Below are positions 3,807-35,003 of a DNA stretch of 36,710 nucleotides, piece by piece. Under the pieces are notes generated by a model. That model searched no databases. It had not been told where the DNA came from and saw nothing but the letters and a program-made list of their open reading frames with translations. Within the stretch, counting starts at the first letter, position 1, and every line of letters begins with the position of its first letter. The position numbers and the translations under genes were made by a program. The stretch comes from a virus, in IMG/VR virus record IMGVR_UViG_3300044213_000007, positions 1 through 36,710 of that record; one strand, written 5' to 3'.

Positions 3807-3841
3807 GACAATCTTCGCAAGAAGGCACTAAAACAAGACAA

Positions 3842-3864
3842 ACCCCATTTTGGTCACATGGGGT
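3842..3864 (-). terminator. Hairpin terminator of the leftward operon
   Basis: A 7-bp perfect stem (ACCCCAT at 3842-3848, ATGGGGT at 3858-3864) with a 9-base loop. Read on the minus strand, the stem is followed by a T-rich stretch (TTGTCTTGTTTT), as in an intrinsic terminator. On the plus strand there is no T-run, so for the lysis genes it is at best weak. It sits exactly where the two convergent operons meet and overlaps the last codons of the 38-residue gene. Confidence 0.5.
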
Positions 3865-3970
3865 CATCTTCGTCATTCCACGGGTGTTTCATATCCCAAA
3901 TGAAAGCTAGCGCAACGCCAACAACAAGTGCTGCTGCTATGCAATAAATAACCATATCAACGGTGTCCAT
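3854..3970 (-). CDS. 38-residue single-TM protein
   Basis: A small gene: ATG at 3970, stop at 3854-3856, with a strong ribosome site (GGAGG, 7 bases before the ATG). The protein has one transmembrane helix (about residues 6-25, MVIYCIAAALVVGVALAFIW) and an acidic tail (WNDEDDP). It overlaps the preceding gene by 14 bases and is the last gene of the leftward operon. Its tail is encoded by the terminator stem. The clear ribosome site and helix argue that it is real; function unknown. Confidence 0.7.
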   Translation of the reverse strand: MDTVDMVIYCIAAALVVGVALAFIWDMKHPWNDEDDPM

Positions 3971-6685: not shown

Positions 6686-6853
6686 ATGGACAAACAATAT
6701 TTCATCAAAAAAGCTGGATCAATCAAGAAATTGGCTGAGTTGCTTGGCATTAATCAAGCGGCTATTTCTCAATGGACAACAGTTCCAGAGATGCGAATCT
6801 GGCAATTGAAAGTTTTGCGCCCAGAATGGTTTGAAATTATTGAGCCAGATTAA
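6686..6853 (+). CDS. P22-Cro-like repressor, 55 aa
   Basis: 55 residues with a helix-turn-helix typical of the P22 Cro family: SIKKLAELLGINQAAISQW (about 12-30), followed by VPEMRIWQLKVLRPEW, the conserved segment after the recognition helix in this family. It would bind operators in the divergent region just upstream and repress the early promoters. It is the first gene of the rightward operon. No CI-like partner gene is seen between it and the leftward operon. No Shine-Dalgarno sequence is visible before its ATG. Confidence 0.87.
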   Translation: MDKQYFIKKAGSIKKLAELLGINQAAISQWTTVPEMRIWQLKVLRPEWFEIIEPD

Positions 6854-6861
6854 GGAAAAAC

Positions 6862-7137
6862 ATGAAAAAAATCTTGATTCTCATTAGCTTGGTTTGCGGG
6901 TTAGCTAACGCAGCCACTATTGCAACATCGCCAAACAATTCTGGCGGTCAAATGATCCTGACGGACATTAAATGCAAAAAGTCTGGTTTTGTGGCTTACA
7001 CCACCGTTCCCAATGGAAAAACAGGGTTTGGCTGTTATTTTTGGGATGACAATTACATTCACGTTGAATGGGATGAAGCTGGCGTGATGAGCTATCCATA
7101 TTCATCATGGACGTTTAAAGCCAAAACAACCTATTGA
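6862..7137 (+). CDS. Small secreted (periplasmic) phage protein
   Basis: 91 residues with a clean signal peptide (KKILILISLVCGLANA, cleavage after residue ~17) and a mature domain of about 74 residues containing two cysteines (IKCKKSG and GFGCYFWDD) and several aromatic residues near the C-terminus (VEWDEAG, YPYSSWTF). AGGA lies 6 bases before the ATG. Short exported beta-rich proteins like this are frequent in phage early regions; I do not know a function. The -35 element of the next promoter overlaps its stop codon. Confidence 0.8.
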   Translation: MKKILILISLVCGLANAATIATSPNNSGGQMILTDIKCKKSGFVAYTTVPNGKTGFGCYFWDDNYIHVEWDEAGVMSYPYSSWTFKAKTTY

Positions 7138-7160
7138 CAAGCGAGAAAAGTGTGTATAAT
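7134..7160 (+). promoter_or_regulatory. Consensus-like promoter of the structured RNA
   Basis: TTGACA (7134-7139) and TATAAT (7155-7160), both perfect hexamers, separated by 15 bases, shorter than the optimal 17. TAATCC at 7157 would give 17 but is a poorer match. Transcription would start near 7166-7168, exactly at the first RNA hairpin. Confidence 0.6.
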
Positions 7161-7565
7161 CCGAACCGTCTGGAGTGGCATCTAGACGAACGAAATGAAG
7201 GATTGAACCCCGCAGGTTTCTGTGTGGTCTTGTCGTATAGCGAGCGAGGCTTTTGCCTTCATTTCAATCGTCTCGCTGTTGCTCTCGCCAAGAGCCAAGA
7301 CCACAGAGCATCTTGCGGGGTTTTTTCTTTTGGCAACAGACCGAGTGACTCGCGTTACGTTACTGGGCCTGAATGGGCTGCCAAGTCAGAATACACCGAC
7401 AACAAGACACACCCCTTGATTTGCCGAACAGCGTTGATTGAGCGACTGTTAAAGGATTGGGTACAACGGTGGAAACAAGGCCCTATCTATAAGCGAATCA
7501 ATCCGTCCAGCGCACTTGGTCTTTGTGTACTTGAGATGATTAAGATTAACTTTGAGGATGAATGA
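7134..7565 (+). CDS. Doubtful reading frame through the RNA hairpins
   Basis: An open frame of 143 codons with no ATG until near its end; it would need a TTG or GTG start. The part after the terminator (about 7340-7565: SRYVTGPEWAAKSEY, then LICRTALIERLLKDW and WKQGPIYKRINPSS) looks like real protein, with basic and aromatic residues and a plausible helix. The part before it is spelled by the inverted repeat. A second open frame (7222-7419) covers the same stem-loop. I recall phage early regions where NPAGF...CGVF-type translations are annotated, but whether they are translated is unclear. Possibly a gene whose start is hidden in the hairpin. Confidence 0.35.
   Translation: MTSEKSVYNPNRLEWHLDERNEGLNPAGFCVVLSYSERGFCLHFNRLAVALAKSQDHRASCGVFSFGNRPSDSRYVTGPEWAAKSEYTDNKTHPLICRTALIERLLKDWVQRWKQGPIYKRINPSSALGLCVLEMIKINFEDE
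7161..7326 (+). ncRNA. Candidate structured small RNA or attenuator
   Basis: About 160 bases between a strong promoter and a T-run. Hairpin 1: CGTCTGGA (7167-7174) with TCTAGACG (7181-7188), 8 bp including one G-U, 6-base loop. Hairpin 2: a 27-base imperfect stem, 7206-7232 with 7296-7322, with the perfect outer part AACCCCGCA/TGCGGGGTT and inner part GGTCTTG/CAAGACC, closing a loop that can itself fold through AGCGAG and CTCGCT (7272-7277). The second stem ends in TTTTTT. Either an independent RNA of unknown role or a leader that stops most transcription before the replication genes. Confidence 0.6.
7206..7326 (+). terminator. Long-stem Rho-independent terminator
   Basis: The 27-base imperfect inverted repeat at 7206-7232/7296-7322 has a GC-rich base (CCCCGC/GCGGGG) followed directly by six T residues (7321-7326). 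It should terminate the cro-operon transcript and the RNA starting at ~7166 unless antitermination occurs. The downstream replication genes then need read-through. Confidence 0.65.
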
Positions 7566-7585
7566 GATGAACATAAAGATGGAGA

Positions 7586-7605
7586 AAGGTGGTATATCCA
7601 CCCTT
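7586..7605 (+). promoter_or_regulatory. Small hairpin in front of a ribosome site
   Basis: GGTGG (7588-7592) and CCACC (7598-7602) pair around TATAT, extended by AA/TT with one bulged C. The GGAGA ribosome site of the next gene (7606-7610) follows immediately. It could tune translation of the replication-type gene. Confidence 0.35.
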
Positions 7606-7614
7606 GGAGAACCT

Positions 7615-7995
7615 ATGCCCAAATTATTTGAAAGCGGTTTTGACAGATTTTGGACAGCTTGGCCTAAGTCACCTAGAAAAGGTGCAAAGTCAGAATGTCT
7701 AAAAAAATGGACTAAGCTATATTGCGAAACTTGTGCGGATCAAATTGTCAAGCACGTTGAATGGATGAAAACAACCGATCAATGGAGGCAATCAAACGGG
7801 GCGTTTATTCCTGCACCTTTGGTTTATCTGAACCAACAACGATGGGATGGCGCTGAGATTCCTGAAATGGAGAATGTTTTGCCAGAAAAATATAAAGACC
7901 CTGCCCTTTTAAAGATTGAACAAGACCGTCAAAAGGCTTCTCCGATGCCTGAAGATGTACGAGCAAAAATAGCGGCTTTAAGGGGGTTATTTTGA
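7615..7995 (+). CDS. Replication-associated (DnaT/O-C-terminal-like) protein
   Basis: 126 residues from the ATG at 7615, preceded by GGAGA at a 4-base spacing; the open frame extends upstream to 7552 but without a better site. The N-terminus FDRFWTAWPKSPRKGAKSECLKKW matches a segment common at the C-terminal part of phage replication proteins (FxxFWxxYPKK...GK..A...W). The middle has a conserved patch FIPAPLVYLNQQRWDG typical of the same proteins. It lacks the N-terminal winged-helix domain such proteins usually have, so it may be a short primosome-loading factor. It is the only replication-type gene seen. Its stop is followed without gap by the methyltransferase starts. Confidence 0.7.
   Translation: MPKLFESGFDRFWTAWPKSPRKGAKSECLKKWTKLYCETCADQIVKHVEWMKTTDQWRQSNGAFIPAPLVYLNQQRWDGAEIPEMENVLPEKYKDPALLKIEQDRQKASPMPEDVRAKIAALRGLF
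7980..7986 (+). promoter_or_regulatory. Ribosome site shared by two overlapping starts
   Basis: AAGGGGG lies 5 bases before a TTG (7992) that opens the methyltransferase frame and 9 bases before an ATG (7996) that opens the overlapping frame. Both spacings are workable, so one ribosome site may feed two reading frames. Confidence 0.55.
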
Positions 7996-8816
7996 ATGAG
8001 TTGGCTTTATTCGCAGGCGCTGGTGGGGGCATACTTGGGGGAAAACTTCTCGGATGGCGAACAGTCTGCGCCGTTGAATGGGAAGTTTATCCAGCAAGCG
8101 TACTGTGCGCCCGACAAAATGACGGACTTCTCCCGCCTTTCCCGATTTGGGATGACGTACAAACCTTTGACGGACATCCCTGGCGAGGAGTTGTTGACGT
8201 TGTATCTGGAGGGTTTCCATGCCAGGACATCAGCGCCGCAGGAAAAGGCGCAGGAATTGATGGAGAGCGATCAGGAATGTGGCGAGAAATGGCTCGCATC
8301 ATTTGTGAAGTACGACCCCGATACGTCTTTGTGGAGAACTCACCAATGCTCACTTCTAGGGGACTTGGAGTTGTTCTTGGAGACTTGGCCGCAATGGGGT
8401 TTAATGCGCGATGGGGAGTGTTGGGAGCAAATGCCGTTGGAGCCAATCACAAGCGCGACAGAATTTGGATTGTTGGTAAATTTTCCAACACCAACAGTAG
8501 GAATGGTGACGGGAGGTCAAAATCCGGAAAAGGGAGGCCAAGTGGGATTAGGTTACATGGCTCGAAAGAACAAATGGCCCACACCGAGAACGGCTGGGAT
8601 GTGTGGTGGGACAGGTTCATGGGAACTACTCAACAAGAACACGACAAAGGAAGAGGCACGTTTGATGGGAGCGGGGAATGGTGGAAAACTGAACCCAACG
8701 TGGGTAGAGTGGCTGATGGGGTGGCCGCTAGGGTGGACAGACTTAAAGCCATTGGGAATGGGCAAGTTCCCTTGTGCGCCGCAACAGCATGGAGAATCCT
8801 AAGTGAACCGCGATGA
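7992..8816 (+). CDS. DNA cytosine-5 methyltransferase (C5, Dcm-type)
   Basis: 274 residues. The C5-methyltransferase motifs appear in order: motif I FAGAGGG (7-13), binding S-adenosylmethionine; motif IV GGFPCQDIS with the catalytic Cys77; motif VI ENS (115-117); motif VIII KRDRIW (154-159); then a short variable target-recognition region; and the C-terminal motif X, AIGNGQVP. It would methylate cytosine in an unknown sequence. No partner restriction enzyme is nearby, so the likely role is protecting phage DNA from host restriction. The start is a TTG overlapping the previous stop; no ATG is available before motif I. Codons 2 onward are overlapped by another long frame for ~800 bases. Confidence 0.9.
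   Translation: MNELALFAGAGGGILGGKLLGWRTVCAVEWEVYPASVLCARQNDGLLPPFPIWDDVQTFDGHPWRGVVDVVSGGFPCQDISAAGKGAGIDGERSGMWREMARIICEVRPRYVFVENSPMLTSRGLGVVLGDLAAMGFNARWGVLGANAVGANHKRDRIWIVGKFSNTNSRNGDGRSKSGKGRPSGIRLHGSKEQMAHTENGWDVWWDRFMGTTQQEHDKGRGTFDGSGEWWKTEPNVGRVADGVAARVDRLKAIGNGQVPLCAATAWRILSEPR
7996..8802 (+). CDS. Protein fully overlapping the methyltransferase
   Basis: 268 residues in the +1 frame, starting at an ATG 9 bases after AAGGGGG. The sequence does not look like a random shadow: it is balanced in composition, with regions such as DFSRLSRFGMTYKPLTDIPGE, KYDPDTSLWRTHQCSLLGDL, WPTPRTAG and NPTWVEWLMGWPLGWTDL. I remember the FSRLSRFGMT and NPTWVEWLMGWP segments from many phage proteins, some annotated as methylase-related or hypothetical. 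The same bases give the MAHTENG and EPNVGRVADGVAARVDRLKAIGNGQVP-like segments in the methyltransferase frame. No known domain. It could be an overprinted gene; the function is unknown. The stop is followed at once by the next GTG start. Confidence 0.6.
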   Translation: MSWLYSQALVGAYLGENFSDGEQSAPLNGKFIQQAYCAPDKMTDFSRLSRFGMTYKPLTDIPGEELLTLYLEGFHARTSAPQEKAQELMESDQECGEKWLASFVKYDPDTSLWRTHQCSLLGDLELFLETWPQWGLMRDGECWEQMPLEPITSATEFGLLVNFPTPTVGMVTGGQNPEKGGQVGLGYMARKNKWPTPRTAGMCGGTGSWELLNKNTTKEEARLMGAGNGGKLNPTWVEWLMGWPLGWTDLKPLGMGKFPCAPQQHGES

Positions 8817-34340: not shown

Positions 34341-35003
34341 ATGACAACAGCCGTTTACTGGATTCACCGACCTGAGCATACAGATATGTTCACTCAGGGT
34401 TACATCGGTGTGACCAAACATGGTCGTCAAAATCGTAGATATTGGGAACATAAAACGGTTTCTGGCAATGCTCATCTAAAAAGCGCACTGGCTAAATATG
34501 AAACGCAAATGGACATTATTTTGATTTCAGATCAAAAATACTGCCAAGACATTGAGTTTAAATTGCGACCAGTGCCAAATATTGGCTGGAATATCACCTG
34601 TGGCGGAGGTATTCCGCCAAATTTTAAAGGAAGAAAACGATCTGCTGAGTTTGTTGCAAAAGCTAAAATGCGTAAAGATTCTGAAGAAACAAGATTAAAA
34701 AAGTCTTTGTCATCAATGGGCAATAAACGAGGATTAGGATTGAAAAGAAGCGCAGAGCAAAAAGCTGCAATATCCAAATCGATGAAGGGCAAACAAAATG
34801 CTCTTGGTAAGCAAAACGGTCTTAAATATCGTTACATTGGTACAAACATTAAGACAGGTGAGATAATCACGTTAGTTGGTGGTAAGCCAGTAACTGATGC
34901 TGGTTTTCATGTTGGTCATGTTAGCGAATGTGCTAACGGGTCAATGAAGTCTCACAAAGGATACACATGGAAAAAGGAGCCTATTCATGGCAAGCATAAT
35001 TAA
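34341..35003 (+). CDS. GIY-YIG homing endonuclease
   Basis: 220 residues. GIY-YIG domain: VYWIHRP at the start and GYIGVT, then the conserved RRYWEHK, an acidic site in DIEFKLRP and WNITCGG. NUMOD3-like repeats follow (KGRKRSAEFVAKAKM, KRSAEQKAAISKSMKG) and a C-terminal HTH-like segment. AT-richer than the neighbours. It sits between two paralogous fibre genes, where it could promote their conversion. Its stop overlaps the next gene by 17 bases. Confidence 0.9.
   Translation: MTTAVYWIHRPEHTDMFTQGYIGVTKHGRQNRRYWEHKTVSGNAHLKSALAKYETQMDIILISDQKYCQDIEFKLRPVPNIGWNITCGGGIPPNFKGRKRSAEFVAKAKMRKDSEETRLKKSLSSMGNKRGLGLKRSAEQKAAISKSMKGKQNALGKQNGLKYRYIGTNIKTGEIITLVGGKPVTDAGFHVGHVSECANGSMKSHKGYTWKKEPIHGKHN

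Follow-up and report, generated by a model that had tools for sequence, protein, structure and literature searches.

A strong promoter and a structured RNA ahead of the replication gene

What does a phage gain from a strong promoter whose transcript would end at a predicted terminator after only about 160 nt, directly ahead of its replication gene? The question is raised by a locus in the viral DNA of IMG/VR record IMGVR_UViG_3300044213_000007, the whole 36,710 nt of which were analysed (the window, to which all positions refer). An initial annotation had described a self-contained unit of promoter, structured RNA and terminator at this place, and the analyses support that description as a prediction. 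TTGACA (7134-7139), a 15-nt gap and TATAAT (7155-7160) were read in the sequence, as was the proposed 8-bp hairpin (7167-7174/7181-7188); the long imperfect stem was recovered with 39-nt arms (7206-7244/7284-7322, 77% complementary), and the six-T run lies at 7321-7326. The inner loop, said to be able to fold again, proved to be the site of V', the partner of a segment (V) that follows the first hairpin. The features of this 5' RNA and the genes flanking it are as follows.

6686-6853, + strand: P22_Cro-like regulator (Pfam PF14549, E=1e-10)
7134-7160, + strand: predicted sigma-70-type promoter (from sequence; -35 box kept in relatives)
7167-7188, + strand: P1, 5'-terminal hairpin, 7167-7174:7181-7188, loop GUGGCA 7175-7180 (minimum free energy (MFE) fold; stem covaries)
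7192-7201, + strand: V, hypervariable GAAAUGAAGG, 5' strand of the pseudoknot (inverted repeat I2, duplex test, rank test)
7206-7232, + strand: A stem, 5' strand, also the 5' half of the terminator stem (MFE, repeats, many double compensatory pairs)
7238-7278, + strand: branch B, stem at about 7238-7248/7270-7278, with V' in its loop (MFE, RNAalifold)
7256-7265, + strand: V', CCUUCAUUUC, 3' strand of the pseudoknot (repeat I2, duplex and rank tests)
7281-7295, + strand: hairpin C, loop CGCCA 7286-7290 (RNAalifold; loop-loop complementarity to P1)
7296-7331, + strand: A stem, 3' strand, and U-tract TTTTTTCTTTT, predicted intrinsic terminator (from sequence)
7552-7995, + strand: replication initiation protein, phrog_9474-like (PHROGs, E=1e-14), likely start at the in-frame ATG 7567

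The preceding ORF (6862-7137) runs into the promoter, which was missed by an automated scan because that scan accepts spacers of 16-18 nt only. In relatives, the spacing was mostly 15-16 nt, and among the matches listed a perfect TTGACA was present in 42 of 103 (0.3% in shuffles), with at least five of six positions matching in 61 of 103 (about 3% in shuffles). The -35 box was absent from every search pattern, so that its conservation was not imposed by the way in which relatives were collected. The MFE of the RNA was -78.5 kcal/mol, compared to -49.6 +- 4.3 kcal/mol for dinucleotide shuffles (z = -6.8), and none of 200 shuffles folded as well; the RNA fold and the promoter arrangement are beyond chance.

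Relatives in freshwater phages and absence from known families

Protein searches with the neighbouring ORFs led to relatives in IMG/VR, in many of which the RNA aligned at 79-87% identity. Two DNA patterns, one covering the promoter and P1 (imposing TGTATANT and GTGGCA) and the other imposing part of the A stem, each gave at least 120 matches, largely in the same contigs and about 70 nt apart; the -35 box, V:V', the C loop and the base of the stem were free of any pattern constraint. Altogether, the RNA recurred in more than 100 IMG/VR loci with at least 110 distinct sequences, 62 of which remained at a 92% identity cut-off. The family sample is biased by the search patterns and consists of metagenomic contigs only, and since related contigs are not independent, evolutionary events are fewer than these counts suggest.

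The earlier statement that the RNA corresponds to no recognised family agreed with the Rfam search proposed along with it, in which none of the 4227 families of Rfam 15 hit the window at the gathering threshold; relaxed thresholds gave chance-level hits only. The 5' RNA was likewise not found in 50,697 phage records or in PLSDB plasmids. A pattern search of 84,980 prokaryote genomes returned 64 hits, all of which appeared chance-like when read by eye, an absence valid for that pattern only, as it covers 79 of 88 family members. Three mini-elements (L056, L108 and L118) gave weak covariance-model hits (E about 0.02-0.5) and were not accepted as members, their membership being unproven. No publication describing the family was found among open-access papers. 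By every search made, the predicted RNA is a new family, in uncultured freshwater (lake, river) phages.

Covariation and strandedness

The initial annotation had staked the RNA on compensatory changes in related phages, and these were found. RNAalifold predicted 39 pairs from an alignment of 56 relatives, 23 of them with double compensatory changes. The 5' side of the basal A stem varied (for example GCAG, AUAG, UACAG, UCAG) with the 3' side matching in each case, while the closing helix and the U-tract remained constant, and the traits of a terminator (GC-rich base and U-tract) were present throughout the aligned relatives. A covariance model retrieved further members, among them the divergent L171. 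As newly defined here (P1, A, B, C, V:V' and a P1:C loop-loop kiss), the family showed covarying helices and the pseudoknot in different phages. The body of the RNA is predicted to be a three-way junction, the basal helix of which is a predicted intrinsic terminator.

Paired cells of the 5' RNA alignment contained G.U and A.C combinations in a ratio of 231:7, and this large excess of G.U indicates that the element acts as + strand RNA. The same excess disfavours a reading as DNA structure, in which the element, adjoining the replication gene as it does, would be a replication origin or a single-strand initiation structure at the DNA level; given also that promoter and U-tract are conserved, we regard such an origin as extremely improbable.

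Kissing loops between P1 and C

Overlooked at first, UGGC (7176-7179) in the P1 loop is complementary to GCCA (7287-7290) in the C loop, which would allow the two loops to kiss. As the first search pattern had demanded GTGGCA, the loci retrieved by the second pattern were checked for this pairing, and nearly all of them retained both GUGGCA and GCCA. Compensatory changes were present in L190 (UGGU:ACCA) and L171 (GCUAA:UUAGC), and the loops of the L008 group could pair as UGGCA:UGCCA.

A hypervariable but matched pseudoknot

The initial annotation had also overlooked that V (7192-7201) pairs with V' (7256-7265), over 10 bp in the window, in a pseudoknot of 10-14 bp that was already apparent as inverted repeat I2 (23 nt, 83%); the pairing of V can run further 5', into the 3' strand of P1. 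From base counts, the B and V helices together (about 22 bp) and the A stem (about 22 bp) have similar lengths, which would make an intramolecular pseudoknot sterically plausible.

In 88 distinct RNAs, the V:V' duplex was far more stable for matched strands (-22.3 +- 4.1 kcal/mol) than for strands swapped between phages (-12.6 +- 3.4 kcal/mol), and in a rank test of 44 distinct V' types the own partner was best in 39. V' was diverse (48 distinct sequences among 96 RNAs), and pairs of RNAs with about 96% identical scaffolds had identical V' in only about 12% of cases, no other helix of this RNA being nearly as variable. As predicted from these comparisons, V:V' is hypervariable yet co-varying. 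Strands that are very different between phages yet nearly always matched point to a regulatory switch, and perhaps also to recognition of their own kind.

V was considered as an antisense to its own phage, and 11 matches of V 10-mers were found in own phages compared to 1.5 in swaps; this reading was rejected, as the sites were few and scattered, some of them being counted more than once. A consistent copy of a V or V' target was not found elsewhere in the own contigs.

We consider it decidedly unlikely, though of interest, that V:V' is a self code, each phage type having a pairing word of its own by which its RNAs or nascent transcripts would recognise one another in trans and ignore other types; immunity, copy control or assembly of homo-oligomers may be the outcome. 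A smaller probability is assigned to immunity by RNA only, in which the V' of a resident phage would pair with the nascent V of an incoming phage of the same type and shut down its replication operon, like P4 CI RNA. The wide variation of V and V' on a conserved scaffold, the location of V' in a hairpin loop and the failure to find a CI repressor or an integrase among those window proteins that were tested would all fit such immunity, and P4-like leaders operate in this way (PMC4825925). P4, however, has extra seqA/seqC sites outside the CI RNA, and an extra V site was not found here; V moreover lies within the same RNA, where it would normally pair in cis, and no sign of lysogeny was seen.

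A second RNA domain directly behind the terminator

A further structured domain, not recognised in the initial annotation, follows the 5' RNA.

7332-7519, + strand: second structured domain (class 1), which contains a separate pseudoknot at 7436-7441/7498-7503 (covariation, 24 sequences)

This domain abuts the U-tract without a gap, and so do the domains of classes 2 and 3 and others. Class 1 was found at no fewer than 26 loci, including the window, class 2 at no fewer than 50 and class 3 at no fewer than 12, with several more classes besides, so that the predicted downstream domains form at least five exchangeable classes behind the same 5' RNA. Classes 1 and 2 contained covarying helices, with G.U:A.C ratios of 189:6 and 522:75, respectively, and the class 1 pseudoknot also covaried. 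None of the second-domain examples tested matched Rfam, and no covarying helix linking the 5' RNA with the second domain was found. Other structured classes followed the 5' RNA in L104, L152, L195 and L202, in L156 and L196, and in L141; in L177 (reverse strand), the downstream domain of which resembles that of L196, a frame of about 80 aa just past the RNA apparently lies within the first part of the domain.

In class 2, a variable tag of 6-12 nt after an internal GGCUCC recurs directly past the 3'-terminal CACC, the two copies being identical and not complementary, in about 57 loci or more (for example L045, L048, L052, L078 and L086). The tag, which in L078 reads GAAGGUCAACAU / AAAGGUCAACAU, looks like an internal copy of the flank; a flank tag of this type was not found in class 1.

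An ORF at 7134-7565 (143 aa), covering both the RNA and the domain behind it, was judged spurious because its frame is not conserved (frames and stops differ among the about 20 relatives compared), it has no Pfam or PHROGs family match, and covarying RNA helices lie behind the RNA.

The two domains might be modules of a single noncoding RNA of about 350-500 nt, of the GOLLD/ROOL sort, in which the "terminator" would be mainly a structural stem. Adjacency of the modules in the loci inspected points in this direction, as do the pseudoknots and covariation in both domains and the joining of class 1 to an alternative 5' element (type II, below) even where the replication gene lies upstream. A single long RNA is nevertheless regarded as unlikely, since the GC-rich stem and U-tract are kept in aligned relatives and in type II as for a real terminator, the 3' domains are exchangeable, and a covarying helix between the domains was not found.

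Genomic context

A Cro-like homologue was located upstream in at least 67 loci and a homologue of the replication gene in at least 92, the latter at a median distance of 306 nt downstream; both lie on the strand of the RNA. The location is that of a lambdoid cro-to-replication junction as predicted from these homologies, with the RNA pair nearly always before the replication gene and usually after the Cro-like gene. The window encodes head, portal and ejection proteins like those of P22-like podoviruses, and neither an integrase nor a CI repressor turned up among those of its proteins that were tested. Two long ORFs overlap in different frames downstream of the replication gene (7992-8816, a C-5 cytosine methylase by Pfam, and 7996-8802), and an HNH homing-endonuclease-like gene (34341-35003) lies beside the tail-fibre genes.

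At the same location, L011, L023-L030, L036 and L040 carry an element (type II) that is built differently on the same plan. It consists of two hairpins, one at the 5' end and a long one of terminator type, again with a GC-rich stem and U-tract, and its P1 loop is complementary to a segment of the long hairpin over 7-9 nt, a complementarity kept across several different sequences. In L012 and L013, the replication gene comes first and is followed by type II and a class 1 domain (at about 3830-3960), and control of that gene is therefore not universal.

A conditional terminator as the preferred reading

A phage small RNA, a put-like antitermination element and an attenuator had been offered side by side in the initial annotation. 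The data lean towards a conditional terminator that would release a short RNA, and nothing specifically put-like was observed. With a probability somewhat short of even, we propose that the cro-to-replication junction carries here a conditional terminator (attenuator) that also yields a short RNA, a reading favoured because the predicted terminator is kept in the aligned relatives and yet, in the loci inspected, a covarying + strand domain directly follows it.

According to this proposal, the sigma-70-type promoter, situated where the preceding gene ends, would start an RNA of about 160 nt near 7167, which would fold into a 5' hairpin and a three-way-junction body with the V:V' pseudoknot and the loop-loop kiss. 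Most transcripts would stop at the terminator, freeing a compact and stable short RNA, while a controlled fraction would be extended past it, through the second domain and on into the replication gene; pseudoknot and kiss would set how easily the terminator forms, and the released RNA may possibly act in trans as well. As the second domain follows the U-tract without a gap, it would be reached by read-through, from this or an upstream promoter, and given its + strand folding and the lack of space for a separate promoter, we infer that polymerase sometimes passes the terminator. An attenuator alone does not explain the fast change of V.

The second domain could also be transcribed solely from the upstream cro promoter, with a constitutive terminator and a purely trans-acting short RNA. 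A trans-acting phage sRNA of this kind, whose compact form would act on a host or phage partner and whose position before the replication gene would be historical, is judged somewhat unlikely. It would account for the promoter and predicted terminator carried by the RNA across the family, for the compact and very stable fold, for the combination of one 5' domain with five or more downstream classes and for the lack of a covarying helix between the two; it fits poorly with the structured domain directly behind the RNA in the loci inspected, with the nearly constant position before the replication gene in the same orientation, and with the failure to find any consistent complement of V in the rest of its phage.

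Comparison with known systems

The plan predicted here, with promoter, leader RNA and terminator before replication genes, is recognisable. The attenuators of pT181-type plasmid rep genes, which are antisense-controlled, likewise combine a terminator before a replication initiator with variable pairing segments; here, in contrast, no antisense transcript is known, and the variable helix has its two strands within one RNA. The lambda PR'-tR' unit (6S RNA), which is subject to Q antitermination, resembles the locus in having a strong promoter, a terminated leader (about 190 nt in lambda) and an operon behind, but it precedes the late genes, whereas the 5' RNA lies before replication and is far more structured; no qut-like site or Q partner was identified for it. 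The put antitermination RNA of HK022 is built of two neighbouring stem-loops that act on RNA polymerase in cis, an architecture from which that of the 5' RNA (MFE, RNAalifold) differs, and the 5' RNA is not classed with put.

IsrK of prophage Gifsy-1, which resembles the P4-like SeqA RNA, is an sRNA that has a promoter and a terminator to itself and some of whose transcripts continue into downstream ncRNA/mRNA (PMC4825925). The anatomy of the locus, with a predicted promoter, a predicted terminator and a second RNA domain behind, would fit this layout. IsrK, however, lies downstream of a Q-like gene and the 5' RNA before the replication gene, and the latter has no Rfam match and a fold with pseudoknot, kissing loops and three-way junction. 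The untranslated P4 CI RNA leader imposes termination before replication genes, with specificity conferred by short complementary segments (PMC4825925); the locus shares with it a predicted terminator in a leader and a replication gene downstream on the same strand, but the partner segment is within the same RNA and external target copies like seqA/seqC were not found. GOLLD and ROOL are structured phage RNAs of unknown function, GOLLD being partly lake-derived and having a less conserved 5' region (PMC12286853). The 5' RNA is similarly a structured phage RNA, but is much smaller and does not match the Rfam models. As a predicted RNA it belongs to no known family, and its hypervariable matched pseudoknot is a feature that we cannot match in any known system.

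Implications

The locus adds a widespread and strongly supported RNA family that neither Rfam nor the searched phage records contain, and the exchangeable second domain adds several further undescribed structured RNAs. If the 5' RNA is an attenuator, it would give the lambdoid cro-to-replication junction an RNA switch. If V:V' is a specificity code, RNA-based self-recognition in phages would become directly testable; and if the self code is true, it would constitute an RNA-only self/non-self system, located at the replication switch of phages that seemingly have Cro and lack CI.
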